From: Clostridia bacterium
GTDB lineage: Bacteria; Bacillota; Peptococcia; DRI-13; UBA5745
Reading direction: 5' to 3'
Length of the DNA: 64,000 nt
Assembly: GCA_018434325.1 (NCBI GenBank)
Contig: JAHDPO010000013.1
Span: 124,001-188,000 of the forward strand
Shown here: one piece after another, positions 27,583 to 53,098 of the stretch
How the letters are laid out: every line of letters begins with the position of its first letter
Numbering within the stretch: position 1 is the first letter of the stretch
Program-made: the position numbers and the translations under genes
The notes under the pieces: generated by a model
Seen by the model: only the letters and a program-made list of their open reading frames with translations
Databases searched by the model: none
What the model was told of the DNA's origin: nothing

Positions 27583-28053
27583 GTGTCTATGCCCCTGATT
27601 TTATTTTTATTATGGATATTGTTAAACGGCAGGGTAACCGCTGATGTAATAGCAAGCGGTATAGCGGTCGCCTTTTTGGCATGCCTTTTTTGCCGTAAAT
27701 ATATGGGTTATCATTGGCAAAAAGATCGAATCATGATGAAAAAGGCCGGCAAACTGGCCCGGTATACGCTGACGCTGGTCTGGGAGATGATCCTTGCCAA
27801 TATTCAGGTGATCAAGCTGGTCTTATCACCGCGGATCAACATACGCCCTTGTATCATTCATTTTCAGCCGCCGATTAAATCTACCTTCGCCAGGGTGCTT
27901 TTGGCCAATTCCATTACGCTGACCCCCGGCACCATCACCGGCATCCTGACGGATAAGGGGTACAGCGTCCACGCCCTGACGCCGGAAATTGCCAAGAGTG
28001 TGGAGGATTCCATATTCATTCGCTTAGCCAGAGAATTGGAGGATGAAGACTGA
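27583..28053 (+). CDS. mrpE: Mrp-type Na+/H+ antiporter subunit E
   Basis: Small membrane subunit (156 residues) of a multi-subunit cation/proton antiporter. The N-terminal two-helix block (ILFLLWILLNGRV) and the SITLTPGTITGIL segment (residues ~108-120) are the family hallmarks. The GTG at 27583 starts the frame; an in-frame ATG at 27589 sits too close to GAGGTG for certainty. It overlaps the F subunit by one base and opens a nine-gene operon. Confidence 0.88.
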   Translation: MSMPLILFLLWILLNGRVTADVIASGIAVAFLACLFCRKYMGYHWQKDRIMMKKAGKLARYTLTLVWEMILANIQVIKLVLSPRINIRPCIIHFQPPIKSTFARVLLANSITLTPGTITGILTDKGYSVHALTPEIAKSVEDSIFIRLARELEDED

Positions 28054-28436
28054 TGGGCTTTTTATCTGCCGCCAACCGGCATCTTCTGCTTTTCTCGTTG
28101 ATTTTTTTAAGCATTACCCTTGGTTTTTGTTTGCTGCGGGGTATTTTAGGCCCTAAGTTTACCGACCGGGTGGTAGCCGTCAATATGATCGGCACAAAAA
28201 CCATTTTGCTGATCGCCGCCTTGGCCTTGCTTTTGAGAGAACCCTATCTGCTGGATGTTTGCCTGATTTACGCCCTGATCAGCTTTTTATCGGTGGTAGT
28301 CCTTTCAAAAACTTACATGACGGCTTACAACCGCAAGCAGGCTGCTCAAAAGCCCTGTACAGCCCTGGCCGCCGACAGCGCGGCGGAGTCCGGATCTTCC
28401 CCTGACGCCGGCAAAAGCAGCGGAGGGGCCGTATGA
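28053..28436 (+). CDS. mrpF: Mrp-type antiporter subunit F
   Basis: 127 residues with three predicted membrane helices. The conserved LRGILGPKFTDRVVAVNMIGT block (residues ~28-48) and the LLDVCLIYALISFLSVV helix identify MrpF. The last ~35 residues are an Ala/Ser/Gly-rich hydrophilic tail not needed by the family. Its stop overlaps the start of the G subunit (ATGA). Confidence 0.9.
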   Translation: MGFLSAANRHLLLFSLIFLSITLGFCLLRGILGPKFTDRVVAVNMIGTKTILLIAALALLLREPYLLDVCLIYALISFLSVVVLSKTYMTAYNRKQAAQKPCTALAADSAAESGSSPDAGKSSGGAV

Positions 28437-28768
28437 TCAGAATGATATTGGCTGCCATATTGATTGGAGCCGGCCTTTTCGTATTGGCCGTGGCTACTTT
28501 AGGGATCTTCCGCTTTCACTATGTATTAAATAGGATTCACGTAGCCGCTAAATGCGATACTTTGGGGGCCATGCTGTTTTTGTCGGGATTAGCTGTGCTG
28601 GAGGGCTTTAGCTTTTCCACACTTAAGCTTATTCTCATTATAGTTTTTCTTTGGTTTACCAATCCGGTAGCCAGCCATTTAGTTACCAGGGTGGAGTTTC
28701 AGACGGCGGCGGAGCTGGAGGATGAGTGCAAGGTTATCTGCAGCGGCGGGGAAAGAGAGGGCCAATGA
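28433..28768 (+). CDS. mrpG: Mrp-type antiporter subunit G
   Basis: 111 residues with three membrane helices. GIFRFHYVLNRIHVAAKCDTLG (the R-H-x-x-xKxDTxG region of MrpG) is clear, followed by LILIIVFLWFTNPVASHLV. Start and stop both overlap neighbours by 4 bp, a sign of tight translational coupling within the operon. Confidence 0.9.
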   Translation: MIRMILAAILIGAGLFVLAVATLGIFRFHYVLNRIHVAAKCDTLGAMLFLSGLAVLEGFSFSTLKLILIIVFLWFTNPVASHLVTRVEFQTAAELEDECKVICSGGEREGQ

Positions 28769-29028
28769 TTTTTTTTGAGATACTGCTTTTGGTTTTTCTT
28801 ATTGTTTGCGCCGTTGCCGTAGCTCTTACCCGTCAGCTTTGGCAGGCCATCATTATTTTTATGAGCTATTCTCTGGTGATGTCCGTGGTCTGGGTGTTTT
28901 TGCAGGCGCCGGATCTGGCCGTCACCGAGGCAGCCGTAGGCGCGGGGATTACCAGTATCCTGTTTTATCTGGCTTTAAAGCGGATCAATGCCATGCAGGA
29001 AGGCAAAAAAGGAGGCAAAAGCAAATAA
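28765..29028 (+). CDS. MbhD/DUF4040-type subunit (equivalent to part of the MrpA C-terminus)
   Basis: 87 residues with three membrane helices. ALTRQLWQAIIIFMSYSLVMS and QAPDLAVTEAAVGAGI match the MbhD/DUF4040 domain, which in classical Mrp systems forms part of the long MrpA C-terminus. Here it is a separate gene. The ATG at 28765 overlaps the G-subunit stop; the frame is open further upstream but inside mrpG. Its stop TAATG overlaps the next start. Confidence 0.85.
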   Translation: MIFFEILLLVFLIVCAVAVALTRQLWQAIIIFMSYSLVMSVVWVFLQAPDLAVTEAAVGAGITSILFYLALKRINAMQEGKKGGKSK

Positions 29029-29807
29029 TGCAATTAAGCTCTGTTGAATTAAAGCTTTTGCGGCGCTTCCGTAAGATTTATACAATAATTGCTTTTTTAG
29101 TCAGCCTGGCTATGGCCGCCGTATTACTGCTGACGGTATTTAACTTGCCGGCCTTCGGCAAAGCAGGCAATCCCGCGGAAAACGAAGTAATCGGCCGCTA
29201 TATCGGCAAGGGTTTGGAAGAAACGGGGGCTGTCAATATTGTGGCGGCGGTGATTCTTGATTACCGGGCTTTCGATACTTTGGGTGAGACATTGGTGCTT
29301 TTTTCGGCTCTGGTTGCCGTAATAATGCTTCTCAAAGATGAGCCGGGCGTATTCACCCGCCGCTACCGGGAGCGCAGCCAATTCGAGCCGGAAAAAGATC
29401 AGATCTTTCGTTCAGTGGCTGCCCTGCTGATCCCTTGCTTACTGGTGTTCAGTATATACATCATAGTAAATGGTCATTTGTCCGCCGGCGGCGGCTTTGC
29501 CGGCGGCGCTATTTTGGGAGCTACCTTTATTTTGTACAACATAGCTTACGGCATAGAAAAAGCCCGCAGGTTTCTCAATGAGAAGAGTTTTCTCCGCTTC
29601 ATTACGGCCGCTCTTTTGTTTTACTGCATAGCCAAGGGATATTCTTTTTTCACCGGCGGTAACCATCTGCCTTCCGTTATACCTTTGGGTTTGCCCGGCA
29701 GCATTTTTAGCGGCGGCCTGATCCTGCCCCTCAATATTACGGTAGGCATAGTCGTTGCTTGCGTAGTCTACGGCGCCTTTTGCCTGTTTAACCGGGGAGG
29801 CTTATGA
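29028..29807 (+). CDS. MbhE plus MrpB-type antiporter subunit (fused)
   Basis: 259 residues. The first ~100 residues (with AAVILDYRAFDTLGETLVLFSA) match the MbhE-type portion that normally ends MrpA. The rest matches the MnhB domain (VFSIYIIVNGHLSAGGGFAGGAILGAT, residues ~140-165). This looks like MbhE and MrpB joined in one chain. The ATG at 29028 forms a TAATG overlap with the preceding gene. GHLSAGGGF is the family's Gly-rich signature. Confidence 0.85.
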   Translation: MQLSSVELKLLRRFRKIYTIIAFLVSLAMAAVLLLTVFNLPAFGKAGNPAENEVIGRYIGKGLEETGAVNIVAAVILDYRAFDTLGETLVLFSALVAVIMLLKDEPGVFTRRYRERSQFEPEKDQIFRSVAALLIPCLLVFSIYIIVNGHLSAGGGFAGGAILGATFILYNIAYGIEKARRFLNEKSFLRFITAALLFYCIAKGYSFFTGGNHLPSVIPLGLPGSIFSGGLILPLNITVGIVVACVVYGAFCLFNRGGL

Positions 29808-30181
29808 TGGAGTTTCATTTGTTTACGAATTATGTGGAGATAGCGGCGGTAATTCTGTTTTCCGTCGGTTTTACGACCTTGCTTTTCCATCAAAACCTGA
29901 TGAAGAAGATCATCGGCTTCAATATCATGGATACGGCCATCTTTTTATTCTTGGCGGCCAAGGGCTATATTGCCGGCAGAATGGCGCCAATCCTGGTAGA
30001 GGGGGCTAACGACCCTGCCCTTTATATCAATCCGGTGCCCAGCGCCCTTGTGCTTACGGGCATCGTGGTGTCCGTAAGCGTTACGGCCTTTGCCCTGGCT
30101 TTAGTGCTGCGTTTATACGAAAGATACGGTACTCTCCATTTGGATGAGATTTTATATTTGACCCGAGGGGAGCACGACTGA
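29804..30181 (+). CDS. mrpC: MrpC/NuoK-like antiporter subunit
   Basis: 125 residues with three membrane helices, homologous to MrpC and NuoK. Blocks seen: FTTLLFHQNLMKKIIGFNIMDTAIFLF and NPVPSALVLTGIVVSVSVTAFALAL, the latter typical of MrpC. The Start overlaps the MrpB-like stop by 4 bp. TTG of the next gene begins directly after its stop. Confidence 0.9.
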   Translation: MMEFHLFTNYVEIAAVILFSVGFTTLLFHQNLMKKIIGFNIMDTAIFLFLAAKGYIAGRMAPILVEGANDPALYINPVPSALVLTGIVVSVSVTAFALALVLRLYERYGTLHLDEILYLTRGEHD

Positions 30182-31687
30182 TTGGCTTTAGCCCACAATA
30201 TTCCTTTTATCAGCATTATGATAACCATACTGGCTGCTGTGACTTCTCTGTTGGCAGACAAAAACAGGGCGGCCAGGCTGTGCATTGGAGCGCTCACCGT
30301 AGTGGCCTTTTTATCCGCCATATTATTTGCTTATCTTTGGCAGACGGGGACCAGCTTCACGTTTTCTATGGGCCATTTTCCGGCCCCCTGGGGCAACGAG
30401 CTGCAGGCCGGCCTCTTTGAAGCCTTAATGGCCCTTACGTTTACCGTGGTGATGATTCTATCTCTGGTGGCAGGCAGAGAGCGGGTAGTGGCGGATATTG
30501 CCCCATCCCGGCAGGGAATGTATTATTTGCTCTGCAGCCTGCTGACTTGCTCTTTGCTGGCCTTGATTTATACCAATGATATTTTTACGGCCTATGTTTT
30601 CGTGGAAATCAATACGCTGGCGGCCTGCGGCATCGTGGCTGCCAAGGATACAGGTGAGACCATCACTGCCACCATCCGCTATCTGGTGATGAGCCTGCTG
30701 GGCTCCGGCTTGATTCTCATTGCCGTTTCCTTGCTTTATGCCATTACCGGCCATCTGCTGATGAATGATCTGCTCAGCAGCATGACTGAGCTGGCGGCTT
30801 CCGGCGATTATGCCATGCCTTGTATGGTGATCATGCTTTTTCTTGCCATCGGCCTGGCTATTAAGAGCGCCCTTTTTCCATTTCATACCTGGCTGCCTTC
30901 GGCTCACGGCTCGGCTACGGCGGCTTCCAGCGCCATTTTGTCCGGCATCGTGCTCAAGGGCTATATTATTCTTCTGCTGAAAATCTTTTACCGGGTCTTC
31001 GGCCTGTCCTTTGCCCGGGATTTAAGGGTGGCAGACCTGCTTTTCGTCTTTGGTCTTTTAGGTATGATTATGGGCAGCGTTTTTGCCGTTAGGGAGAAAA
31101 ATTTAAAGCATATGCTGGCTTATTCTTCGGTAGCTCAAGTGGGCTATATCTTTATGGGCATCGGCCTCAGTACCGACATCGGTATGGTGGCGGCCTGCTT
31201 TCATATCCTGGCCCATGCCATAACGAAGCCTTTGCTCTTTTTGGCTGCCGACGGTCTGATGGACGTATCCGGTCACAGCAAAAATATTTTTAATATGCAG
31301 GGAGCCGCCCGCCGCAATATTTTAGCCGGTATAGCCTTTACCATAGGCGCTTTATCGATGATCGGCATCCCCATGTTTTCCGGCTTCGTTTCGAAGTTTT
31401 ATTTTGTCCAGGGATCCTTTCAAAATCCCGATAAAATGCTGGTTACCTTGATTGTTCTGGCCCTCAGCACCGTGCTGAATGCCATGTATTATCTGCCGGT
31501 ATTGGTAACCCTCTATCTTAGCAATGACGAGCAGTCTCCTCATCGCCACAGGCAGTCGGCCAATTCCCGCAATTATCAAAGCGTCATGATTATTTTTATC
31601 CTGTTGAATTTTATTTTAGGTATGTTCTATGAGCCGGTGATCAAGGCTTTGGAGCAAGGTTTGTTGATGCTAGGAGGTGCCCATTGA
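30182..31687 (+). CDS. Antiporter-type subunit 1 (MrpD/NuoN-like)
   Basis: 501-residue polytopic protein of the proton-antiporter family shared by Mrp, Mbh and complex I. The key charged membrane residues are present: Glu in YVFVEINTL, Lys in LAIKSALFPFHTWLPSAH, Lys in SGIVLKGYI and Lys in HAITKPLLFLAAD. TTG start at 30182, one base after the MrpC stop. Overlaps the next subunit by 4 bp. Proton or sodium specificity cannot be told. First of four consecutive such subunits. Confidence 0.9.
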   Translation: MALAHNIPFISIMITILAAVTSLLADKNRAARLCIGALTVVAFLSAILFAYLWQTGTSFTFSMGHFPAPWGNELQAGLFEALMALTFTVVMILSLVAGRERVVADIAPSRQGMYYLLCSLLTCSLLALIYTNDIFTAYVFVEINTLAACGIVAAKDTGETITATIRYLVMSLLGSGLILIAVSLLYAITGHLLMNDLLSSMTELAASGDYAMPCMVIMLFLAIGLAIKSALFPFHTWLPSAHGSATAASSAILSGIVLKGYIILLLKIFYRVFGLSFARDLRVADLLFVFGLLGMIMGSVFAVREKNLKHMLAYSSVAQVGYIFMGIGLSTDIGMVAACFHILAHAITKPLLFLAADGLMDVSGHSKNIFNMQGAARRNILAGIAFTIGALSMIGIPMFSGFVSKFYFVQGSFQNPDKMLVTLIVLALSTVLNAMYYLPVLVTLYLSNDEQSPHRHRQSANSRNYQSVMIIFILLNFILGMFYEPVIKALEQGLLMLGGAH

Positions 31688-33168
31688 TCAATGAAACAAT
31701 GATACTGGCTTTATCCCCCTTGCTGCCCTTTGGGGCGGCGCTGCTGCTGCCTTTTTTAAAGTTAGAAAAAAAGAATTACAAATTGATGTATACGCTGGGC
31801 GTCACCTTCTGCAATTTACTGATAGCATTTTATATTGTCAGGCATTTGCAGGGACGATCTCTGGTTTTGTTCAAGATTACCGAAAACATGCCCATCCTGC
31901 TGCGGGCCGACGGACTATCGGCGCTATACCTGCTTTTGGCTTCCTTCCTTTGGCTGGGAGTTACGTTGTACTCTCATGGCTATATTGCCCATGACCGCTT
32001 TGAAAACCGTTATTATGCCTTTTTGACCGCGGTTTTAGGATCGCTGATGGGCTTGGGCTTGTCCGGCAATATTATTACTTTTTATCTGTTTTACGAACTG
32101 ATGACTTTTCTAGCCTTTCCCCTGATTTGTCACGAGATGACTGAGGAGCCGGTAAAAGCCGCTATCACCTTTTTGATTTACTCCATATTCGGAGCTACCC
32201 TGGTGCTGGTCGGTATCGCTTTATTGAACGGCTTGGGGGATATTGCGCTATTTAGCCCCGGCGGCATACTGGAGCCGGCGGCTTTAGAAAAAAGCACTTA
32301 TCTTATCATTGCGGTGATGCTGATGCTGTTTGGCTTCGGCTGCAAGGCAGGCATGTTTCCTTTGCAGGCCTGGCTGCCGATTGCCCATCCGGCGGCGCCG
32401 GCGCCCATCAGCGCCGTGCTTTCGGCTTTGATTACCAAAGCCGGCGTTCTTGGCGTCATCCGGGTGATTTATTATATGGTGGGACCGGCCTACCTGAGGG
32501 GCACCTGGCTGCATAGCTTCTGGCTGGCCATTACCCTGCTTACGGTATTTTTGGGATCGATGCTGGCTTTTCGGGAGCCCTTGCTGAAAAAACGCCTGGC
32601 TTATTCCAGTGTCAGCCAGCTTTCCTATATCTTATTTGGTTTGGCAGTGCTTGAACCTACAGGCTTCACCGGCGCTTTATTGCAGATGGTGTCCCATGCC
32701 TTTGCCAAGCTGGTGCTTTTCCTTTGTGTAGGAGCAATCATTCATCAGGCTCATTTTCATCATGTGGGAGAATTGAAGGGCATCGGCAAGAAAATGCCGG
32801 TGGTCATGTGGTGCTTCACCTTGTCCTCCCTTTCGCTGATCGGCATTCCGCCTTTAGGCGGCTTTCTCAGCAAATGGCATCTGATTGCAGGAGCCCTGAA
32901 CGCCGATATCGGTATTTTTTCCTGGCTGGGACCGGTAGTGCTGCTGGTCAGCGCTTTCCTCACTGCCGGTTATCTGCTGCCTATTATAATCGACGCCTTT
33001 TTTCCCGGCGCCGATTATGACTACAACAACCTGACCAATCTTGATCCCGGCTGGCAGATGAAAGGACCTTTAGTCGTTTTCGCCGCCTTCGCCCTTTTTC
33101 AAGCCAGTTTGCCTTCCCGCCTGGTCAGCTTTATTGCGGCTATGGCCGGCGGCTTGATGGGGGTGTAG
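31684..33168 (+). CDS. Antiporter-type subunit 2 (MrpD-like)
   Basis: 494 residues, about 14 predicted membrane helices. Conserved Glu in FYLFYELMTFLAF, Lys in GFGCKAGMFPLQAWLPIAHP, Lys in ALITKAGVLGVIRV and Lys in HAFAKLVLFLCV. A TTG start at 31684 overlaps the preceding stop. It is clearly diverged from the other three antiporter subunits, so not a recent tandem copy. Confidence 0.9.
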   Translation: MINETMILALSPLLPFGAALLLPFLKLEKKNYKLMYTLGVTFCNLLIAFYIVRHLQGRSLVLFKITENMPILLRADGLSALYLLLASFLWLGVTLYSHGYIAHDRFENRYYAFLTAVLGSLMGLGLSGNIITFYLFYELMTFLAFPLICHEMTEEPVKAAITFLIYSIFGATLVLVGIALLNGLGDIALFSPGGILEPAALEKSTYLIIAVMLMLFGFGCKAGMFPLQAWLPIAHPAAPAPISAVLSALITKAGVLGVIRVIYYMVGPAYLRGTWLHSFWLAITLLTVFLGSMLAFREPLLKKRLAYSSVSQLSYILFGLAVLEPTGFTGALLQMVSHAFAKLVLFLCVGAIIHQAHFHHVGELKGIGKKMPVVMWCFTLSSLSLIGIPPLGGFLSKWHLIAGALNADIGIFSWLGPVVLLVSAFLTAGYLLPIIIDAFFPGADYDYNNLTNLDPGWQMKGPLVVFAAFALFQASLPSRLVSFIAAMAGGLMGV

Positions 33169-33173
33169 CGTCT

Positions 33174-34655
33174 TTGAACTCTACTTTGATGCTGATCCTG
33201 CCCATTTTGATCCCGATTATTTGCGGCGGCAGCATGGCTTTTATCAATTTTGATGATGAACGAAAGCGTAATATTTACGTATTCTATATCGTTGTTATTA
33301 CGTCATTTTTCACCTTTGCCGTCAACTTTTGGGGCCCCGACGCCCCCATCACCTTTGTAGGCTTTGGATCAAAAATGGCGATTGCTTTCAAAGTGGACGG
33401 CCTGGGCCGCCTGTTTAGCTCCATGGTGGCTATTCTTTGGCCCCTGGCCACGGTCTACGCCTTTGAATATATGGAGCATGAAGGCAATGAAAAAAGATTT
33501 TACGCCTTTTATACCGTTACGTATGGCGTTACCCTGGCGATTTCTTATGCCGCTAACTTTTTGACCATGTACCTGTTTTACGAAATGCTGACCCTGGTGA
33601 CCTTGCCGCTGGTGATTCATTCCATGAGCCAGCAGGCCTTTGCTGCCGGCAGAAAATATATTTCCTATTCTATTGGCGGCGCCACACTGGTATTTATTTG
33701 CCTCGTCTTTATTGCCAGCTATGGGGACACTTTAGACTTCCGTTTAGGCGGCGTTTTTTCCGCCGATATCATAGCCAATTACGGCGGGCTGCTTTTGCAG
33801 GTTTTCACCATGGCCTTTATTGGCTTAAGCGTTAAGGCGGCCTTGTTTCCCTTTCATGGCTGGCTGCCCTCGGCAACGGTAGCTCCGACAACCGTAACGG
33901 CGCTGCTTCATGCCGTAGCGGTGGTCAAGGCCGGCGCTTTTGCCACCATGCGGCTGACTTACTATATTTTCGGTACGGAGCTGCTGTGGGGTACCTGGGC
34001 CCAGCAGACGGTAATGGCTTTGACGCTGATTACTATTTTGTACGGCTCCGCCCGGGCCTGGTACACCAGCCATTTCAAGCGGCGTTTGGCGTATTCCACC
34101 GTCAGCCAGCTCTCCTATGTGCTTTTTGGCGTTACACTGATGACGCCGGAGGGTTTGGCGGCCGCCATGATGTATATGGTAGCCCACGGCTTCATCAAGA
34201 TCCTGCTCTTTTATTGCTGCGGCGCCGTCAATATCATGGCCCACCGTTATGATGTCCGGGAGCTGGAGGGCTTAGGCCGTTATATGCCGTTGACTTTTGG
34301 TGCCTTTACCGTAGGCGCTTTGGCTTTGATTGGTTTGCCGCCTACCGCCGGCTTTGTGGCAAAACTACAGCTGCTGACGGCCCTGGCTCAAAGCGGCAGC
34401 GGCCTGGCTTTAGGAGGCATCGCCGTTTTCATTTTATCTATGCTGCTGACGGCGGCTTACTTGTTTGCCGTGATCAGGGCTGCTTATTTTCCCAAAACAA
34501 AAGAAGCTTTTCCGGAAGGAGAGCGTGTCCCTAAAGATCCGGGGGCCAGCATGCTCCTGCCTTTAGGAGCGCTGGCTGTTATGGTGGTTATGATAGGAAT
34601 GGCCAGCCGGCCTTTAGTGGAATGGATTACTTTGGTCAGTCAAGGATTAAGATGA
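33174..34655 (+). CDS. Antiporter-type subunit 3 (MrpD/NuoM-like)
   Basis: 493 residues. Conserved Glu in TMYLFYEMLTLVTLPL, Lys in GLSVKAALFPFHGWLPSATV, Lys in AVAVVKAGAFATMRL and Lys in HGFIKILLFYCCGAVN. TTG start at 33174, six bp after the preceding stop. Carries the conserved WLPSAT(V)APTTVTALLHA segment seen in NuoL-type subunits. Confidence 0.9.
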   Translation: MNSTLMLILPILIPIICGGSMAFINFDDERKRNIYVFYIVVITSFFTFAVNFWGPDAPITFVGFGSKMAIAFKVDGLGRLFSSMVAILWPLATVYAFEYMEHEGNEKRFYAFYTVTYGVTLAISYAANFLTMYLFYEMLTLVTLPLVIHSMSQQAFAAGRKYISYSIGGATLVFICLVFIASYGDTLDFRLGGVFSADIIANYGGLLLQVFTMAFIGLSVKAALFPFHGWLPSATVAPTTVTALLHAVAVVKAGAFATMRLTYYIFGTELLWGTWAQQTVMALTLITILYGSARAWYTSHFKRRLAYSTVSQLSYVLFGVTLMTPEGLAAAMMYMVAHGFIKILLFYCCGAVNIMAHRYDVRELEGLGRYMPLTFGAFTVGALALIGLPPTAGFVAKLQLLTALAQSGSGLALGGIAVFILSMLLTAAYLFAVIRAAYFPKTKEAFPEGERVPKDPGASMLLPLGALAVMVVMIGMASRPLVEWITLVSQGLR

Positions 34656-34665
34656 GGAGGATGGC

Positions 34666-36918
34666 ATGACAGGTAATCTGTCTTTGTTTTTATTAATCAT
34701 ATGGCCGGCAGCCGGCGCCTTGCTGGCTTTTTGGCTGGGCCGCCGCAATAAGAGAAGGCGGGATTATTTTTCCATGCTGGTTGCCTTTTTGGAGCTGGCT
34801 CTTGCCTTATTTGTCTTAACCGAGGCCGGCCAGGGAGCCGTTTTTTTCCGCTGGGATTCTTTCGGCGGTTTTGGCCTGGAGCTAAAAAGTGATGGACTCC
34901 GGGGTATTTACTGTGTCGTTACTTCCTTCATGTGGCTGACCACCTTAATGTTTTCCCGGGAATATTTTCATCATTACCGCAACAGAAACCGCTATCATTT
35001 TTTCACTCTTTTGACCCTGTCTTTTACCATCGGCGTCTTTTTGTCTGCCGATCTGGTGACCACCTTTCTCTTTTTTGAGATGATGTCCTTCACTTCTTTG
35101 GTCATGGTGATCAACAACGAAAAGCCGCCGGCTATAGCGGCGGCAAAGCTCTATATTTTTATGGCTCTGGGCTGCGGTCTCGTTATGCTTCTGGGCATCC
35201 AGATGCTGGCTGAGCTTATGGGCACAGTAAATTTTGACGAGCTTTTTACGTTGTGCAGCGCCATGGCTGACAAAAGCAGCCTTTTCTTGCCGGCGCTTTT
35301 GATGCTCGTAGGCTTCGGCGCTAAAGCCGGTATGTTTCCCCTGCACATCTGGCTGCCGGAAGCTCATCCCGTGGCTCCCGCACCGGCCAGCGCCCTGCTT
35401 TCCGGAGTGCTGACGAAAGCCGGCGTCCTGGGTGTATTGGCCATAACCACCAATTTGTTTTACCATGACGGCGGTTGGGGTTTGCTGATTCTGGCGCTGG
35501 GCACGATTACCATGGTGCTGGGAGCAGTGCTGGGCCTCTTTACTATGGATCTGAAAAGGATTTTAGCCTGCTCCTCCGTATCCCAGATCGGTTTTATTCT
35601 GGTAGGGACAGGCATGCAGGGCCTGCTGGGCCACCATAACGCCTTGGCCGTAAGAGGCACCTTCCTGCATATGATCAATCATTCTCTGATCAAGCTGGCT
35701 CTCTTCTTAGTGGCCGGCGCCATCAACATCAACATCCATGAGCTGAACCTCAACAAGATCCGGGGCTTTGGCCGGGGTAAGCCGATTCTGCATTTTGTGT
35801 TTTTAATGGGGGCCCTGAGCATTATGGGTATTCCCTTAAGCAGCGGCTATATCAGCAAGACGCTGCTCCACGAAAGCATCGTCGAGTATATTCATTTGCT
35901 GGAAGGGCTGGGCCAGAGCACTTTGTTTTATCAAGGGGTGGAATGGCTGTTCTTGCTAACCGGCGGCTTCACCGTCGCCTATATGTTGAAGATTTACCTG
36001 GCCCTGTTCTGGGAAACCAACGAAGGCCATCAGGAAGAGTTTGACGCCTTTGACCATCATTATTTGCGGCGAAAGAGCAACGTGGCTTTAGTGGCCTCGG
36101 CGGCTCCTCTGCCGGTATTGGGTCTTCTTCCTTATCAGACCATGAATCCCTTGGCTGATTTAGGCCAAAGCTTTATGCATGGGCACAGTCCCGACCATGC
36201 CGTCCATTACTTTGCCTGGATCAACCTTCAGGGCGCTGTTTACTCCATCCTGATCGGCCTGCTGATCTATTTCTTCTTTGTCCGCAAGGTGCTGATGGGC
36301 CGGCTGCCGCTTGGCGAAGGAGCCGGAGTTGGGGCTAAGGCCGGTGCTAAGGCTGGAGCCGGCGGCAGGCAAAGGGGCTATCTTAACCGCTGGCCGCAGT
36401 GGCTGGATTTAAATCAGAGGCTGTATCAGCCTTTATTCGGGCGAATATTACCCGGCTTGGGCCACTTTTTAGCTAAAGGCATTTATATAGCGGCGGAAAA
36501 AGGCTTTGACGTGATGCTGGCTCTGTCTGTGTCCGCAGGCATCATCCTGGCCGGCAAAGTCCATCACCTTGCCGCCTTGAGCTTTGGAGGCGGCCTGGCC
36601 CTGCTGTTGACAGGTGGGCTGACCGCCGGCCGGTTGATTTACGGTATTACCCAAAAGGGCATCGATGACGTGATTACCCAGGGCGATCAGCTGATCCGCC
36701 GGTTCTTTGCGGCGGTGGACCGGGCTGCCGCTGCCTACCATGAGGCGGTAAGCCGCCGGGTTGATCAGCATTCGGAGTTTACCTTCAGCTCCATTCCCAA
36801 GGAACGCAAGGAAGAATACGATACCTGGCGGGGCATCAACAGCAGTTTATCCTACAGCTTGCTGCTTTTTGGCATCGGTTTGCTGGCAGCCATGATCTTT
36901 TTGCTAAGCCGCTGGTAA
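34666..36918 (+). CDS. Antiporter-type subunit 4, long form (MrpA/HyfB-like)
   Basis: 750 residues, the longest of the four. Conserved Glu in TFLFFEMMSFTSLVM, Lys in GFGAKAGMFPLHIWLPEAHP, Lys in GVLTKAGVLGVLAI and Lys in NHSLIKLALFLVAGAIN. After the ~500-residue antiporter core comes an extra membrane region, an Ala/Gly/Lys low-complexity loop (residues ~550-568) and a C-terminal hydrophilic helix region with a final membrane anchor. GAGGAGG precedes the ATG. It ends the operon; no NDH or hydrogenase core subunits follow. Confidence 0.88.
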   Translation: MTGNLSLFLLIIWPAAGALLAFWLGRRNKRRRDYFSMLVAFLELALALFVLTEAGQGAVFFRWDSFGGFGLELKSDGLRGIYCVVTSFMWLTTLMFSREYFHHYRNRNRYHFFTLLTLSFTIGVFLSADLVTTFLFFEMMSFTSLVMVINNEKPPAIAAAKLYIFMALGCGLVMLLGIQMLAELMGTVNFDELFTLCSAMADKSSLFLPALLMLVGFGAKAGMFPLHIWLPEAHPVAPAPASALLSGVLTKAGVLGVLAITTNLFYHDGGWGLLILALGTITMVLGAVLGLFTMDLKRILACSSVSQIGFILVGTGMQGLLGHHNALAVRGTFLHMINHSLIKLALFLVAGAININIHELNLNKIRGFGRGKPILHFVFLMGALSIMGIPLSSGYISKTLLHESIVEYIHLLEGLGQSTLFYQGVEWLFLLTGGFTVAYMLKIYLALFWETNEGHQEEFDAFDHHYLRRKSNVALVASAAPLPVLGLLPYQTMNPLADLGQSFMHGHSPDHAVHYFAWINLQGAVYSILIGLLIYFFFVRKVLMGRLPLGEGAGVGAKAGAKAGAGGRQRGYLNRWPQWLDLNQRLYQPLFGRILPGLGHFLAKGIYIAAEKGFDVMLALSVSAGIILAGKVHHLAALSFGGGLALLLTGGLTAGRLIYGITQKGIDDVITQGDQLIRRFFAAVDRAAAAYHEAVSRRVDQHSEFTFSSIPKERKEEYDTWRGINSSLSYSLLLFGIGLLAAMIFLLSRW

Positions 36919-37022
36919 GCTTGAGGTTTCAGGCAAGTTTTCCTTTTAAATGGGCTATGGATGAGTTATAATAGGAATGAATCGCTGTAATATAAGCAAA
37001 GTACAAGAGGAGGCTGAGCATT

Positions 37023-37208
37023 ATGCCAAGAATTTATGTGGAGTGGTTTCCCCGGTCAAAAGATATACAGGACGCTTTGGCGAAGAAAATCACGGAGGAT
37101 GTGGTAGAAATCGTCGGCGTAGAGGCAGATTCCGTACAGATCGTCTTCAAGGAAAATCCTAAGGAAAACGTTTATAAAGCCGGCATTTCTGCTACGATAA
37201 AGTTTTAA
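37023..37208 (+). CDS. 4-oxalocrotonate tautomerase-family protein
   Basis: 61 residues starting MPRIYVEWFPRSKDIQ; after Met removal the N-terminal Pro would be the general base of the 4-OT family. ADSVQIVFKENPKENVYKAG is the conserved C-terminal half. The natural substrate is unknown. GAGGAGG precedes the ATG. It has its own terminator and lies between the antiporter operon and selD, with no obvious functional link to either. Confidence 0.85.
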   Translation: MPRIYVEWFPRSKDIQDALAKKITEDVVEIVGVEADSVQIVFKENPKENVYKAGISATIKF

Positions 37209-37219
37209 GGCAATAGGGG

Positions 37220-37247
37220 GGAGCTTTTAAAGCTCCTCTCTTTTTTA
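37220..37247 (+). terminator. Intrinsic terminator of the tautomerase gene
   Basis: GGAGCTTT-T-AAAGCTCC palindrome (37220-37236), followed by TCTCTTTTTT. The pairing core is GGAGC/GCTCC. Confidence 0.8.
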
Positions 37248-37366: not shown

Positions 37367-38443
37367 ATGGGATTTTTATCGGAATGCACCTCAGGCGGCT
37401 GCGGCGCTAAAATCGGCCCCGGCGAATTGGCGGAATTATTGAAAGGTGTGCCCGGCTTTGGCGGTATGATGGACCCGAAGCTGCTGGTGGGCTTTGCATC
37501 CGCCGATGATGCCGCAGTATACCAAATTACGCCGGATTTGGCCTTAGTATCCACTGTGGATTTTTTTTCACCGATGATCGATGATCCTTATCAATTCGGA
37601 GAGATCGCTGCTGCCAATGCGTTAAGCGATATTTATGCCATGGGGGCTGCGCCTCTTTTTGCCTTAAACTTGGTCTGCTTTCCTCAAAAGATGGATAAGG
37701 GAATCCTGAAGGCTATTCTGGCCGGCGGGGCGGCTAAGGTCAAGGAAGCAGGGGCGGTAATTGCCGGCGGTCACTCCATTTATGATCACGAGCCGAAGTA
37801 TGGCTTGGCGGTTACCGGCCAGGTTCATCCCGGCAAAATTTTGCGTAATGACAGCTGCCGGGAAGGCGATTGTCTGATTCTCACCAAGCCTTTAGGGGTA
37901 GGGTTGGTGACGTCCGCTGCCCGGGCGGGCTTGGCTGAACCTCGGATTTACGAGGCGGCTCTGGCTTCCATGACCCGGCTGAACCGCTATGCTGCCGAAA
38001 AAATGAAGGATTTTCCCGTCAGCGCCTGTACCGATATCACGGGCTTCGGCTTATTGGTTCACGGCATGGAAATGGCCGGCCCAAACCATACTTTGGTCAT
38101 TGACACGGACTCTTTGCCCCTTTTGCCGGGCGCTTATGATTTTGCCGCCGATTATTATGCCACCGCTGCCGGGCAGCGTAATTTTAATTATTTCGGGGAC
38201 AAGTTTATCTTGGAAGATATTTCCCCGGCAATAAAGGAAATCCTTTTCGATCCTCAAACTTCCGGCGGCCTGCTGATCAGTGTGCCGGCCGATAAAGCGC
38301 AAGCTCTTTGCGACGCCATCTGCCAAGATGACCCCCAAGCCAGGATCATCGGTCAGGTGGTGGCCAGAGAAGACAGGCCTGCGGCCTCAACCTGCTATCC
38401 GGAGAAAGCGGGGGGCGCAGGTGTTCCGATAATTTTAGTATAA
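37367..38443 (+). CDS. selD: Selenophosphate synthase
   Basis: Makes monoselenophosphate from selenide and ATP, the selenium donor for selenoproteins and for selenium-dependent molybdenum hydroxylases. The catalytic N-terminal block TSGGCGAKIGPGEL carries Cys (not selenocysteine) and Lys. The Asp-rich ADDAAVYQI, STVDFFSPMIDDPYQFG and AANALSDIYAMGA blocks follow, then AGGHSI and FDPQTSGGLL. 358 residues. The AAAGGGGAAG site precedes the ATG. The sequence encoding its last ~20 residues is partly duplicated downstream. Confidence 0.96.
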   Translation: MGFLSECTSGGCGAKIGPGELAELLKGVPGFGGMMDPKLLVGFASADDAAVYQITPDLALVSTVDFFSPMIDDPYQFGEIAAANALSDIYAMGAAPLFALNLVCFPQKMDKGILKAILAGGAAKVKEAGAVIAGGHSIYDHEPKYGLAVTGQVHPGKILRNDSCREGDCLILTKPLGVGLVTSAARAGLAEPRIYEAALASMTRLNRYAAEKMKDFPVSACTDITGFGLLVHGMEMAGPNHTLVIDTDSLPLLPGAYDFAADYYATAAGQRNFNYFGDKFILEDISPAIKEILFDPQTSGGLLISVPADKAQALCDAICQDDPQARIIGQVVAREDRPAASTCYPEKAGGAGVPIILV

Positions 38444-38552
38444 TATTGGGGCGCAGATGGGCCTATGGCCTCAATCTGCTATCCTACGGACACAATCCGC
38501 TATCCGAGGAGACTAAGCACGCGGATGTTCCGTAGATATTGGGGCGCAGATG
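38376..38552. repeat. Degenerate tandem duplication of the selD 3' end
   Basis: The 25-bp word at 38376-38400, inside the selD tail, recurs at 38460-38484 with three changes, and a weaker third copy lies near 38491-38505. A 17-bp word (ATATTGGGGCGCAGATG) occurs at 38443-38459 and 38536-38552. The 173-bp gap before yedF therefore consists largely of decayed copies of the selD end. Confidence 0.65.
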
Positions 38553-38616
38553 TCGGTTATTTTAGTCTGATATTAGCGTATTTTAGCGTACGTGACCGAT
38601 AAAGGAGGATGGATCT

Positions 38617-39276
38617 ATGATTAATGTGATTGGTAAGCCTTGTCCCATACCGGTGATCGAAGCCAAGAAAGCTTTGCGTCTGGCAGCCCCGGGGGAGCAG
38701 GTACGGATTCTTGTCGATAATGACGTAGCCCGGCAAAACCTTCAGAAAATGGCGGAGGGTATGGGCTGCGGTTTCAGCTATGGGCCGGCGGCGGGAGAAG
38801 GCCAGGACAATATCGAGGTTGTCATCACCGCGGCGGCCGAAGCCGGCAAAAACGGCGGCGCTGCCGGCAGCGCTATCAGCGGCGAGTCCGCCGATGCGGT
38901 ATTGGAGGCTGCCCGGCGGCTGCAGGATGAAGAGGGCAAGGGCCTGGTGGTGGCCATCGGCAGCGAATGCATGGGCCGGGGTGAGGATGAACTGGGCCGT
39001 TCTCTGATGAAAGCCTTCATCTATTCGCTGACGGAGCTGGATGCGGCGCCGGAATACCTTTTATTTTTCAACAGCGGCGTTAAGCTGGCTCTGGAAGGAG
39101 CCGGCACCCTGGCGGATCTCCGCACTCTGGCGGATAAAGGCGTCAATATCAACAGCTGCGGCGCTTGTCTCAACTATTATGGTCTCACCGAAAAATTGGC
39201 CATCGGCAATATCACCAACATGTATGCCATTACTACGACCATGTCCCAGGCCCGGCGGCTGATTAATCTCAGCTGA
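38617..39276 (+). CDS. yedF: Selenium metabolism protein YedF (TusA-like plus DsrE-like)
   Basis: 219 residues. The N-terminal TusA/SirA-like domain carries the persulfide-type motif GKPCPIPVIEAKKAL (Cys near residue 9). The C-terminal DsrE/F-like half has LVVAIGSECMGRGEDELGR and the NINSCGACLNYYG motif. YedF proteins are thought to bind selenium and accompany SelD. The linker (residues ~68-90) is Gly/Ala/Ser-rich. AAAGGAGG precedes the ATG. The gene sits between selD and yqeC. Confidence 0.9.
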   Translation: MINVIGKPCPIPVIEAKKALRLAAPGEQVRILVDNDVARQNLQKMAEGMGCGFSYGPAAGEGQDNIEVVITAAAEAGKNGGAAGSAISGESADAVLEAARRLQDEEGKGLVVAIGSECMGRGEDELGRSLMKAFIYSLTELDAAPEYLLFFNSGVKLALEGAGTLADLRTLADKGVNINSCGACLNYYGLTEKLAIGNITNMYAITTTMSQARRLINLS

Positions 39277-39344
39277 TCCCGGTTTGCTTATTTTCCATTA
39301 GTCTCCCTTACCACGGCAGCCGTTTTTACGGAGAAAGGATTGCT

Positions 39345-40106
39345 ATGCCCCGACTTACGGATATTCTCCAATTCCCGCAGGGGGAAGTCGTCACTATCGT
39401 AGGCAGCGGCGGCAAGACCTCCCTGATGTGGCTTTTGGCGGCGGCTCATAGACAAGCTAAGGTTTTCGTCACTACAACCACCAAGATTCGGCGGCCCGAT
39501 GCCTGGCAATATGAAGATTTCCGCAATAATGAAACGTTGCCGCAGCTGCCTTTTGGCCAGGGGATCACTCTGGCCGGCGACGAGATTGCCGGCAGTGAAG
39601 GAAAGCTTGGCATCTTGCTGCCTGAGGTTTTCGAGGCAGCTCTGCCGTATTTTGACTATACGTTCATTGAAGGCGACGGTTCCCGCAATCTGCCGCTGAA
39701 AGGCTGGGCGAAGCAGGAACCGGTGGTGCCGCAAGCGACTACCTGCACCATAGGCGTTGTCACCTTGTGGCCTCTGGGGCATAAAATTAATGAGGAAATC
39801 GTACACCGCTTACCCTTGTTTTCGGAAATCAGCGGCGCTGCTGAAGGAGATGTTCTGACTTTGGAACATATCGCTGCTGCTATCGCTCATCCCTTGGGTC
39901 TGTTCAAGGGTAGCAGGGGCCGCAAGATACTTTACATCAATCAGGTGGAGAATTGGCTGGCGGAAAATCAGGCGCTCAAACTTTTGACGGCGCTGAGGCC
40001 GGCTTTTGTGCAGGAACTTTCTCTGGTCACCGCCGGCAGCGTCCGGCGCAATGAAGGTCATATTTTATGGCAAATGGGCAAAGGGGAGAATCGCTATGGG
40101 CGGTAA
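39345..40106 (+). CDS. yqeC: Selenium-dependent hydroxylase accessory protein YqeC
   Basis: 253 residues. A P-loop-like VVTIVGSGGKTSLMWLLA (residues ~14-31) is followed by VFVTTTTKI and FIEGDGSRNLPLKGWAKQEP, the family signature. Known from comparative genomics as a maturation factor of selenium-dependent molybdenum hydroxylases; the chemistry is not defined. The start at 39345 follows GGAGAAAGG. Overlaps yqeB by 11 bp. Confidence 0.88.
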   Translation: MPRLTDILQFPQGEVVTIVGSGGKTSLMWLLAAAHRQAKVFVTTTTKIRRPDAWQYEDFRNNETLPQLPFGQGITLAGDEIAGSEGKLGILLPEVFEAALPYFDYTFIEGDGSRNLPLKGWAKQEPVVPQATTCTIGVVTLWPLGHKINEEIVHRLPLFSEISGAAEGDVLTLEHIAAAIAHPLGLFKGSRGRKILYINQVENWLAENQALKLLTALRPAFVQELSLVTAGSVRRNEGHILWQMGKGENRYGR

Positions 40107-40938
40107 AGATAACAAAAAAATAACGGCTGTGCTGCGGGGAGGCGGCGATCTGGCTACCGGCGTGGCGCAGAAGCTATGGCGTACCGGCTTTCAGCTGATC
40201 ATCCTGGAGACGCCGGCGCCCACCACCATCCGACGGACAGTGGCTCTCAGTAGCGCCATGGCGGAAGGCGTTTACCAGGTGGAGGATATGACGGCCCGGC
40301 GGATCAAATCGCCGGCGGAGCGCTATGAGCTCTGGCAAAAAGGTGAAATACCGATATTGGCAGATCCCCGAGCCAGCGCATTGTGGGAAATCAAGCCTGA
40401 TGTATTGATCGACGCCATCATAGCCAAAAAGAATTTAGGCACTTACCGCACGATGGCTCCTTTGACCATCGCCTTAGGTCCCGGTTTTTCGGCGCCGAAG
40501 GATGTGGATGTGGTTATTGAGACCATGCGGGGCCACAATCTGGGTCGCCTGATTACCGAGGGAGAGCCCCAGGCCAATACGGGTGTACCGGGGGAGCTGG
40601 GGGGAAAAACAGCGGAGCGGGTAATCCATACGCCGGCAGCCGGTATTGTCCGCCATCTGAGCCAAATCGGCCGGCAGGTGGAAAAAGGCGAACCTCTGTT
40701 TTATCTGGAAGATCTCGTTTTTCCCGATGATCCCGCTAAAAGGATTATTGTGACATCACCGTTGCAAGGCACCCTGCGGGGGTTGATTGCCGAAGGCCTT
40801 GAGGTTCCCAAAGGCCTGAAATGCGCCGATGTGGACCCCCGGCCGCCCCAGGAAGTAGATTGCTATACGATTTCCGATAAAGCCCGCTGTTTGGGAGGGG
40901 CTGTGCTGGAAGCCTGCCTTTATTTGAAAAAAGATTAA
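40096..40938 (+). CDS. yqeB: Selenium-dependent molybdenum hydroxylase system protein YqeB
   Basis: 280 residues of the YqeB (EF2563) family. An N-terminal Rossmann-type VLRGGGDLATGVAQKLWR is followed by VLIDAIIAKKNLGT and the IALGPGFSAPKDVDVVIETMRGH block, conserved in the family. The ATG at 40096 follows AAGGGGAG; the frame is open upstream, but only within yqeC. With selD, yedF, yqeC and the MocA-like gene it forms a nearly complete maturation set. The hydroxylase itself is not in the window. Confidence 0.9.
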   Translation: MGGKDNKKITAVLRGGGDLATGVAQKLWRTGFQLIILETPAPTTIRRTVALSSAMAEGVYQVEDMTARRIKSPAERYELWQKGEIPILADPRASALWEIKPDVLIDAIIAKKNLGTYRTMAPLTIALGPGFSAPKDVDVVIETMRGHNLGRLITEGEPQANTGVPGELGGKTAERVIHTPAAGIVRHLSQIGRQVEKGEPLFYLEDLVFPDDPAKRIIVTSPLQGTLRGLIAEGLEVPKGLKCADVDPRPPQEVDCYTISDKARCLGGAVLEACLYLKKD

Positions 40939-48385: not shown

Positions 48386-49873
48386 TTAACCGAGGATGAG
48401 ATAGCCCAGGGTAAACAGGGGGGCAGCCACCAGCAGACAGGCCAGGCAGCCGACCAGCGTTACCTTGATACGCATACCGCCGTTTTGCAGGGAGGGCTGG
48501 GAATGGAAGATCGAGGCGGGAGCGGAGGCGCCGGGCAGAACCATGCCGATGTTGATCATGTAAATCATAGCGGCGCCGGCAAACTGAGGATTCATGCCGC
48601 TGGACATAACGAAGGGCGCGATGATGGGGATCATGGCGGCGCCGAAGGCGATGTTGGAGCCCAGGTTGGTAAGGACCAGGGACAGCACCATGGTGAAGAC
48701 CAGGATGAAGGTGCCGCCCTTGCCGGCAAAGATCGGTGTAAACACACCAGTGAGCCAGGGCAGGATGCCGGTAGCCTCGTTGGTAACAGCGGCGGCCAGG
48801 GGCAGCGTAACGGCGCACATCAGGATGACCTCCCAGCTGATGGCCGTATCTTTGACCTTTCTGAATTCAATGGTAGGCTTGCCGTCGCCCTCGCCGCTGG
48901 GCAGAACCAGCAGGACGGCGGCGCAGATGCAGTACATGCCGGCCACGGTCATGGTGTTATTGATGAAGTTTGCAAAAGCGGTGCCGATCAAGGTGTTGCC
49001 CAGGATACAGAGAAAAACCGTAATAATGTAAAGGACGAGAATGCGCTTGGCCCGGGGACGCAGAATCTTGCTCTCTTCTCCCATCTTATCCACGTCAAAG
49101 CGTTTCATGATACTGTAATCTACCTTGAAGACCCACTTGCTGAGGAAAACATAGACCGTCAGAATCAGTACCGTAGAGGGAAGGGTGAAGACAGCCATGA
49201 GACCCATGTTCAGCTGCACGGAGGTCACCTCCGACCAGGTGTTGGCCAAGCCCAGCATCCAGCTCTGGTAGGGAACCATGGCGCCGCCCAAAATGGTGCA
49301 CAGCATGATGCCGGCAAAGCCCACATAACGGAAAGAGCAGTCCTTTTCGTAGCCGCAGTTGTCGGCGATATCCTGCCAGATGCCGTAGAGGATGAGAGAA
49401 AGCACGATCTGGTTAACAACGATGCAGGACAGGCCGAAAACAACAAAGAAAGACCAGACATAAAGCAGGGGCTTGCCCTTAAAAATTTTTTTGGATAACG
49501 ACCAGCGTACAAACCACTTGCCGAAGCCGTAATAGGACAGGGAGCCGGCGGCAATGAAGCCCACTATGCTTTGGAACACTACGTTGTGGCCCATCATGGA
49601 GGTGATGGCGGCGCTCATGGAGGTGTAGCCGCTGATGCCATAAGCGATAACGGCAAATAAGGACGGCCAGATGATGTCACAGGATGAGTAACCGTAAACG
49701 ACGCCTAAGAAAACACCCAGCACTTTCATACCCACAGGGGTCAGGGTGCTGAAGGGGGGCAGGAGGCCAAAGCCGAACATCAGAAATAAAGTAATTGCAA
49801 TATTGACGATTTTAACAGGGCTATATCCCCTTTTAATCGCCGTGGTCGTGGTAATAGTTGTTGTTGTCGCCAT
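48386..49873 (-). CDS. SLC13/DASS-type anion permease
   Basis: 495 residues with about 12 predicted membrane helices, similar to the divalent anion:Na+ symporter family that imports di- and tricarboxylates or sulfate. The repeat halves include FQSIVGFIAAGSLSYYGFGKW and the later TNLGSNIAFGAAMIPIIAPF with the SNT-like Asn/Ser-rich segment. The start at 49873 (MATTTT) follows AAAGGAG; the frame opens 58 codons upstream, but that extension is not membrane-like. Divergent from the isomerase genes. Confidence 0.8.
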   Translation of the reverse strand: MATTTTITTTTAIKRGYSPVKIVNIAITLFLMFGFGLLPPFSTLTPVGMKVLGVFLGVVYGYSSCDIIWPSLFAVIAYGISGYTSMSAAITSMMGHNVVFQSIVGFIAAGSLSYYGFGKWFVRWSLSKKIFKGKPLLYVWSFFVVFGLSCIVVNQIVLSLILYGIWQDIADNCGYEKDCSFRYVGFAGIMLCTILGGAMVPYQSWMLGLANTWSEVTSVQLNMGLMAVFTLPSTVLILTVYVFLSKWVFKVDYSIMKRFDVDKMGEESKILRPRAKRILVLYIITVFLCILGNTLIGTAFANFINNTMTVAGMYCICAAVLLVLPSGEGDGKPTIEFRKVKDTAISWEVILMCAVTLPLAAAVTNEATGILPWLTGVFTPIFAGKGGTFILVFTMVLSLVLTNLGSNIAFGAAMIPIIAPFVMSSGMNPQFAGAAMIYMINIGMVLPGASAPASIFHSQPSLQNGGMRIKVTLVGCLACLLVAAPLFTLGYLILG

Positions 49874-49962
49874 TGTGTGACTCCTTTTCTTAAAAAGATG
49901 AAGAGGTGCAGACGGATTAAGAGAGTTCCGATCCAACCCTTGTCTCAATGGAACGATAACAT

Positions 49963-49992
49963 ATTCTACCATTTTTATGATGAGGAGTTCAA
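49963..49992 (-). promoter_or_regulatory. Probable promoter of the leftward permease unit
   Basis: On the minus strand TTGAAC (49987-49992), 18 bp, TAGAAT (49963-49968). It lies in the 274-bp divergent gap between permease and isomerase genes, the natural place for LysR control. Confidence 0.4.
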
Positions 49993-50041
49993 GCATGCAG
50001 ACTATTGGGACTTTCGGCATGGGGTAACGCTTTTTGGTATT

Positions 50042-50069
50042 TTCCAAATTTTTGTATTTGCGCTATGAT
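50042..50069 (+). promoter_or_regulatory. Possible promoter of the rightward catabolic operon
   Basis: TTCCAA (50042-50047), 16 bp, TATGAT (50064-50069), about 80 bp upstream of the first isomerase-like gene. The weak -35 would fit activation. Confidence 0.3.
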
Positions 50070-53005: not shown

Positions 53006-53098
53006 TAAGGCGCTTGATGAGGCGCTGCCGGAAACCGGCCTTATAAGGCCGCATTGCAAAAACAGGAAAATTTCCAAGATTATTTGGGGAGGTACAAA

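Follow-up and report, generated by a model that had tools for sequence, protein, structure and literature searches.

Group 3 of the Mrp antiporters is defined by the lack of mrpA and the presence of only mrpD, 'sometimes with multiple copies' (PMC8415708). The stand-alone Group 3 Mrp of Pyrococcus furiosus, with the gene order EFGBB'CD, has a role in the pH response (PMC8415708); the group 3 Mrp of Nitrospira carries two further NuoM/NuoL-like genes (PMC7784846); and, according to a review, Mrp clusters in anaerobes are markedly unlike their counterparts in aerobes (PMC5703873). Here we describe a ten-gene Mrp operon with four antiporter-like subunits (A1 to A4) on the plus strand (positions 27583-36918) of a 64,000-nucleotide stretch of the genome of a Clostridia bacterium (assembly GCA_018434325.1, contig JAHDPO010000013.1, positions 124,001 to 188,000; hereinafter, the window). 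Judging by its gene content, the operon is a stand-alone Group 3 Mrp and thus belongs to a published class. We put at roughly 0.6 the probability that it encodes an electrogenic Na+ or K+/H+ antiporter that has no redox engine and in which the four subunits would form a long proton array. The initial annotation, made from the sequence alone, had described a Mrp/Mbh-like operon that stands alone and encodes four antiporter-type subunits, and this description is supported genome-wide and in relatives; the contrast that it drew with the classical two-antiporter Mrp is not in itself new, given that Group 3 systems with multiple mrpD genes have been published (PMC8415708, PMC7784846).

Gene content and classification of the operon

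The ten genes are separated by gaps of -4 to +10 bases. The first six encode an MrpE-type subunit (27583..28053; 156 amino acids, GTG start; PF01899 (MNHE), E-value 8e-30), an MrpF-type subunit (28053..28436; 127 amino acids; PF04066 (MrpF_PhaF), 3.4e-16), an MrpG-type subunit (28433..28768; 111 amino acids; PF03334 (PhaG), 4.8e-23), an MbhD-type subunit (DUF4040; 28765..29028; 87 amino acids; PF13244 (MbhD), 1.1e-20), a fusion of MbhE and MrpB (29028..29807; 259 amino acids; PF20501 (MbhE), 1.4e-6, and PF04039 (MnhB), 5.6e-24) and an MrpC/NuoK-type subunit (29804..30181; 125 amino acids; PF00420 (Oxidored_q2), 3.7e-20; NCBIfam cation/H+ antiporter subunit C, 1.8e-31). The fusion gene starts at 29028; a longer open reading frame (ORF) listed from 28806 overlaps mbhD and does not mark the gene start. 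The remaining four genes encode A1, an MrpD/MbsH/NuoN-like protein that adjoins MrpC (30182..31687; 501 amino acids, TTG start; PF00361, 5.5e-53), A2 (31684..33168; 494 amino acids; 6.4e-54), A3 (33174..34655; 493 amino acids; 8.1e-52) and the terminal A4 (34666..36918; 750 amino acids; 1.3e-57; HyfB model, 1.8e-76), so that the E-values for PF00361 (Proton_antipo_M) range from 8e-52 to 1e-57 across the four. The ORF positions and the Pfam and NCBIfam matches show that the coordinates and the gene content had been correctly annotated.

The 3.83 Mb genome (98.3% complete) contains exactly four PF00361 genes, all inside the operon, and these mrpD-type genes are not accompanied by an MrpA fused to MbhD/MbhE. 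Such a fusion, extended by MrpB in Group 2, characterizes Groups 1 and 2; in this operon, neither MbhD nor MbhE is joined to any of A1-A4. Together with the homologs of MrpB, C, E, F and G identified by Pfam and NCBIfam matches, this is the makeup of Group 3. The C-terminal region of MrpA had been thought to be split off into separate genes; the genes are indeed separate, but they are better read as MbhD and MbhE of the MBS/MBH type than as derived from MrpA. The closest solved structures for MbhD (MbsD and MbhD) and for the fusion are MBS and MBH subunits, and the top match of the fusion is MbsE of P. furiosus MBS (6u8y_E, E-value 2.4e-20), which is the same MbhE+MrpB fusion (PMC8415708).

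No redox module of the complex-I type was found. Whole-genome profile searches detected neither PF00346 (NuoD/hydrogenase-type large subunit) nor PF00146 (NuoH) in the genome, and each of these searches detects matches in 11 of 14 control genomes; the reach of the searches is complex-I-type subunits, and unrelated electron modules fall outside it. With no hydrogenase-like large subunit in the operon or the genome, the system is not an MBH/MBS/Ech/Hyf-type complex, and with the NuoH and NuoD cores absent, it is not a respiratory complex I. Among the operon-bearing relatives whose genomes were searched whole, 48 of 49 lack PF00346; the single exception encodes an Ech-like large subunit, which may or may not lie near the operon. 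Antisense ORFs inside the operon aside, every neighboring gene family is confined to 9 or fewer of the 81 loci, and a scan of the same kind detects the large subunit beside other Bacillota Mrp clusters (L124, L131, L142 and L144). The absence of any hydrogenase or NDH core subunit, noted originally for the operon, is thus borne out genome-wide and in almost all relatives, close relatives show no conserved redox neighbor, and a hidden redox module adjoining the operon is rejected for complex-I-type large subunits. Given the same gene set in the great majority of relatives, the near-universal lack of the large subunit and the absence of a conserved neighbor, we consider the operon to be a stand-alone system.

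Among the described systems, the P. furiosus stand-alone Mrp (mrpEFGBB'CD; PMC8415708) shares with the present operon the order E-F-G-(MbhD/E, B)-C-D and lacks both mrpA and a redox module, but contains a single MrpD instead of four and a fusion of MbhD with MbhE rather than of MbhE with MrpB. The MBS complex of the same organism (6u8y) includes the closest solved MbhD, the same MbhE-MrpB fusion (MbsE) and more than one antiporter-like subunit; there are, however, two of these (MbsH and MbsH') and they are coupled to a redox module. Two- and three-subunit operons of Bacillota (L130 and L153; L126 and L138) and the Nitrospira group 3 system have the same E-F-G-D-E-B-C core, and the Bacillota operons also share orthologous A1 and A4; unlike in the present operon, MbhE and MrpB are mostly separate in the Bacillota operons, and the middle subunits number one or none and often lack the histidine-containing type discussed below. 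In the Bacillus Group 1 Mrp (7qru, 6z16), the E, F, G, B, C and MrpD subunits are homologous to those described here and have the same transport residues, but MrpA combines, in one protein, a histidine-switch antiporter domain and MbhD/MbhE; in the present operon, the switch is on A3, the terminal tail is on A4, and MbhD and MbhE are encoded separately.

The antiporter-like subunits and the variation in their number

All four antiporter-like proteins retain the glutamate in transmembrane helix (TM) 5 (E142, E138, E137 and E138 in A1, A2, A3 and A4, respectively), the lysine in TM7 (K228, K221, K221 and K220) and the lysine in TM12 (K405, K397, K397 and K398). These residues, as well as a TM8 lysine six columns past the histidine switch position and one TM11 histidine, are invariant or nearly so in approximately 70 orthologs of each subunit, in agreement with the initial annotation, which had each antiporter protein keeping the membrane Glu and Lys. 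In the alignment, the TM12 glutamate of Escherichia coli NuoM is present in none of A1-A4, all of which carry lysine at this position. The ten proteins are 82-98% identical to those of the congener G004, and the ratios of nonsynonymous to synonymous substitution rates (dN/dS) in this comparison (A1, 0.070; A2, 0.074; A3, 0.065; A4, 0.093) show that A1-A4 are under purifying selection; given these values and the conservation of the gene order across families, the operon is not a chance arrangement.

In the Mrp of Bacillus pseudofirmus, MrpA His248, a TM8 residue, moves back and forth between Thr306 and Ser146 and has been proposed to gate protons (PMC9568556). Only A3 displays this MrpA/NuoL-type combination of a TM8 histidine (H246) with Ser/Thr and loop Thr partners, in this case, T143 and T309. 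Among 70 A3 orthologs, the switch histidine and the loop threonine are present in all 70, and the position of Ser146 is occupied by Thr in 69 and by Ser in one; in A1, A2 and A4, serine is found at the switch position in all orthologs aligned. The second-best solved match of A3 is a NuoL. In the structure comparison for A3 (model with a predicted local distance difference test score, pLDDT, of 87.7), MrpD and NuoL chains tie; structure matches confirm the fold only. The C-terminal extension is located on A4, not on A3, and is modeled as TM15 (518-543) followed by a poorly defined lateral segment and a final helix (728-749) in a structure of overall pLDDT 80.6, the nearest folds being MrpA, MrpD and NuoL. 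Thus, the two hallmarks that are joined in MrpA and NuoL, the histidine switch and the tail, reside on separate proteins, a split that had previously been missed. The same separation is seen in E. coli hydrogenase-4, with the His-type HyfD and the long-tailed HyfB; however, that enzyme is redox-driven and contains three such subunits (HyfB, HyfD, HyfF), and A3 and HyfD are not grouped in the tree. Expanded antiporter-like arrays are also found in the four- and five-pump complex I (Nitrospira 2M, rhizobial green complex I, Manganitrophaceae; PMC9040806), but these are redox-driven quinone enzymes, and E. coli NuoM has the TM12 Glu where A1-A4 have Lys.

In a carefully built tree of 60 sequences (support values are given as bootstrap/Shimodaira-Hasegawa-like approximate likelihood ratio test), which was built along with a larger quick tree, A2 and A3 are sisters (100/100) that group first with His-type middle subunits from other operons (100/99) and, at the next node, with the single middle subunit found in three-subunit operons (98/95). 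A1, for which the top solved-structure match is 6u8y_H, and A4 fall into separate clades that are common to the two- and three-subunit operons (99/100 and 99/99, respectively), whereas MrpA, NuoL and HyfD form a clade of their own (100/99), and none of the four PF00361 proteins groups with MrpA in the trees. Given that A2 and A3 are sisters nested with middle subunits, the fourth subunit most likely arose via duplication of the middle one. A plain MrpA homology of A4 is ruled out by its separate clade and its lack of the TM8 histidine. For A3 as a simple MrpA/NuoL ortholog, placement of the A3-type sequences alone with MrpA/NuoL/HyfD is rejected (p = 0.001 in the approximately unbiased (AU) test). 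Placement of the A2 and A3 types together with this clade is not rejected (AU p = 0.094), so the A3 histidine could have been inherited from a common ancestor and lost in A2, or could have arisen by convergence.

Of 80 relatives drawn from public genomes, 67 hold the complete operon, and the same ten-gene composition is found in 64 of these. In 61 loci, the genes follow the plain order; in two others, F and G are listed the other way round because of extended ORFs, and in one, A4 is divided between two ORFs. This exact composition is, accordingly, a known one as far as genomes are concerned; our search of the open-access literature turned up no stand-alone Mrp described as having four or five antiporter-like subunits. 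Two of the three remaining complete loci belong to Treponema (L029, L066), in which A1 is doubled and A3 is absent, and the third, from Defluviitaleaceae, encodes five subunits, namely A2, A4 and three of the A1 type. In the congener G002, the operon has the composition E-F-G-D-EB-C-A1-A2-A4 and is flanked by genes that, from their sequences, resemble molybdopterin-biosynthesis genes and nusG/ribosomal protein genes. The operon is a real variant that is conserved in many anaerobic Clostridia. Its presence as a general feature of the host class was rejected: of 31 class genomes, only 2, both members of this genus, contain a strong match to A4; at the level of the phylum, close A3 orthologs were detected in 4 of 398 evenly drawn genomes, including the source genome, a sparse distribution that suggests transfer or loss.

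MbhE is encoded in 61 of 199 evenly drawn Bacillota genomes, and in 40 loci where MbhE is not a part of MrpA, we read out the composition of the cluster. Redox-free clusters with one (L128), two (L130, L141, L153, L157, L160), three (the commonest in this set; e.g., L126, L138), four (L163, L129, in which the contig end cuts A4, and probably L132) and five (L133, split over two adjoining stretches) antiporter-like subunits form a graded series in Bacillota that had not been noticed in the initial annotation. Like L133, L073 (911-12054) is a stand-alone cluster with five antiporter-like subunits, and L132 contains repeated A4-type genes. In another group of three-subunit clusters (L146, L149, L158), the TM7 Lys of the last subunit is replaced by Asn in the three sequences aligned; L147, L148, L150, L155 and L162 are similar.

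Predicted mechanism and alternative explanations

Electrogenic Na+(K+)/H+ exchange is the likeliest function of the operon. Under the proposed mechanism, MrpE, F, G and MrpB together with MbhD and MbhE would form the cation path, and MrpC would link this module to the antiporter array, in which A1 would adjoin MrpC as MrpD and NuoN do, the duplicated pair of A2 and A3 would occupy the middle, and A4, with its NuoL/HyfB-like tail, would form the cap. Protons would enter from the outside down the membrane potential and travel along the Glu-Lys axis, with A3 supplying the histidine gate that classical Mrp keeps in MrpA. A role of the antiporter in linking the H+ and Na+ circuits, by converting one into the other, is plausible because the same genome encodes an Rnf complex, an F-type ATPase and a V-type ATPase with Na+ motifs. 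The c subunits of the two ATPases are encoded in the pair of regions L180 1456-1947 and L181 1483-1758: the F-type subunit, in one or the other of these, has A-E-A-T around the carboxylate and lacks the Gln/Ser of Na+ types, and the V-type subunit contains LPGTQG and the second-hairpin Gln and Glu. By these motifs, we take the former to be of the H+ type and the latter to be of the Na+ type of Enterococcus hirae.

The stoichiometry of Mrp antiporters is unknown (PMC9568556), and how the number of antiporter-like subunits sets the ion stoichiometry is an open question for both Mrp and complex I. We hypothesize, as an unproven extension of the mechanism, that the extra subunits raise the H+/Na+ ratio; by adding proton paths for each cation, they would make export possible at low membrane potential. 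In a more tentative generalization to the stand-alone Mrp complexes of anaerobic Bacillota, the H+/cation ratio might vary with the number of subunits, one to five, that are mounted on a common cation module, and the histidine gate would be on a separate, removable subunit, A3; if so, the pair of operons with and without A3 within one genus would represent two gears of one machine. A redox-free series of one to five subunits, with the switch subunit missing in close relatives, would make stoichiometry measurable without electron transfer. Many gut and rumen Clostridia are concerned, and the operon may be a main link between the H+ and Na+ circuits in these bacteria.

Three observations weigh against the favored explanation: A3 is dispensable, being absent in the congener G002 and in Treponema (L029, L066); the A4 tail does not become longer with rising subunit number when compared across operons, in contrast to the lateral-helix insertion that is reported for four-pump complex I (PMC9040806); and MrpF Asn44, in the alignment to 7qru_F, replaces B. 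pseudofirmus Asp38, which is a part of the proposed Na+-path model (PMC9568556). The first two of these observations, along with the two-subunit (A1 and A4) and three-subunit operons that are common in Bacillota, would fit A1-A4 being alternative parts, one or two per complex (for example, A1 and A4, with A2 or A3 swapped in), that serve as condition-tuned isoforms; given that the four genes form one operon with a fixed order in nearly all complete loci (64 of 67), which favors joint assembly, and that every transport residue is kept in all four proteins, we regard this explanation as unlikely, albeit the strongest of the alternatives. Still less probable is that the operon encodes the membrane arm of a redox-driven pump, the electron module of which is encoded elsewhere or is of another type: the affinity of MbhD and the MbhE-MrpB fusion to MBS and MBH and the existence of redox-linked Mrp clusters in Bacillota speak for such a pump, but, in searches that cover complex-I-type subunits, PF00346 is lacking in 48 of 49 operon-bearing genomes, the host has neither PF00346 nor PF00146, and no neighbor is conserved. 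An exchanger of the same build for Ca2+ or another ion appears the most doubtful of the three, being suggested by the Asp-to-Asn replacement in MrpF and by a Ca2+/H+-exchanging Mrp from Thermomicrobium roseum (as cited in PMC5703873) but opposed by the conservation of the MbhD and MbhE glutamates and by the finding that Na+, Li+ or K+ is the transported ion in the majority of the Mrp systems that have been assayed (PMC5703873).

Within Na+(K+)/H+ exchange by a joint four-subunit complex, the cation path or specificity may differ from that of the B. pseudofirmus Mrp because of the replacement of Asp38, Asn being the family consensus; the MbhD and MbhE glutamates are conserved. Across Bacillota, this MrpF position is Asn in most stand-alone clusters and Asp in Group 1 and redox-linked clusters.

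Other genes in the window

Downstream of the operon, a gene for a 61-amino-acid protein with matches to Tautomerase and DUF1904 (37023-37208), which we do not count in the complex, is preceded by its own promoter-like site (36945-36972) and followed by a terminator-like hairpin on the plus strand (37215..37241; 12-pair stem with a T-rich tail, identified by consensus match only), the probable 3' end of the transcript. Farther downstream (37367-40938), a selenide water dikinase-like gene, a gene for a TusA-domain protein, yqeC and a yqeB-like gene lie side by side in what looks like a maturation cluster for a selenium-dependent molybdenum hydroxylase. On the minus strand, an ORF of 553 codons without a Pfam match (48386-50047) overlaps an opposite-strand ORF of 337 codons (48485-49498), and either could be the gene. 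Two adjacent MmgE/PrpD-family genes (51626-53005 and 53054-54571) are located near a gene for a molybdopterin oxidoreductase (56009-58147).

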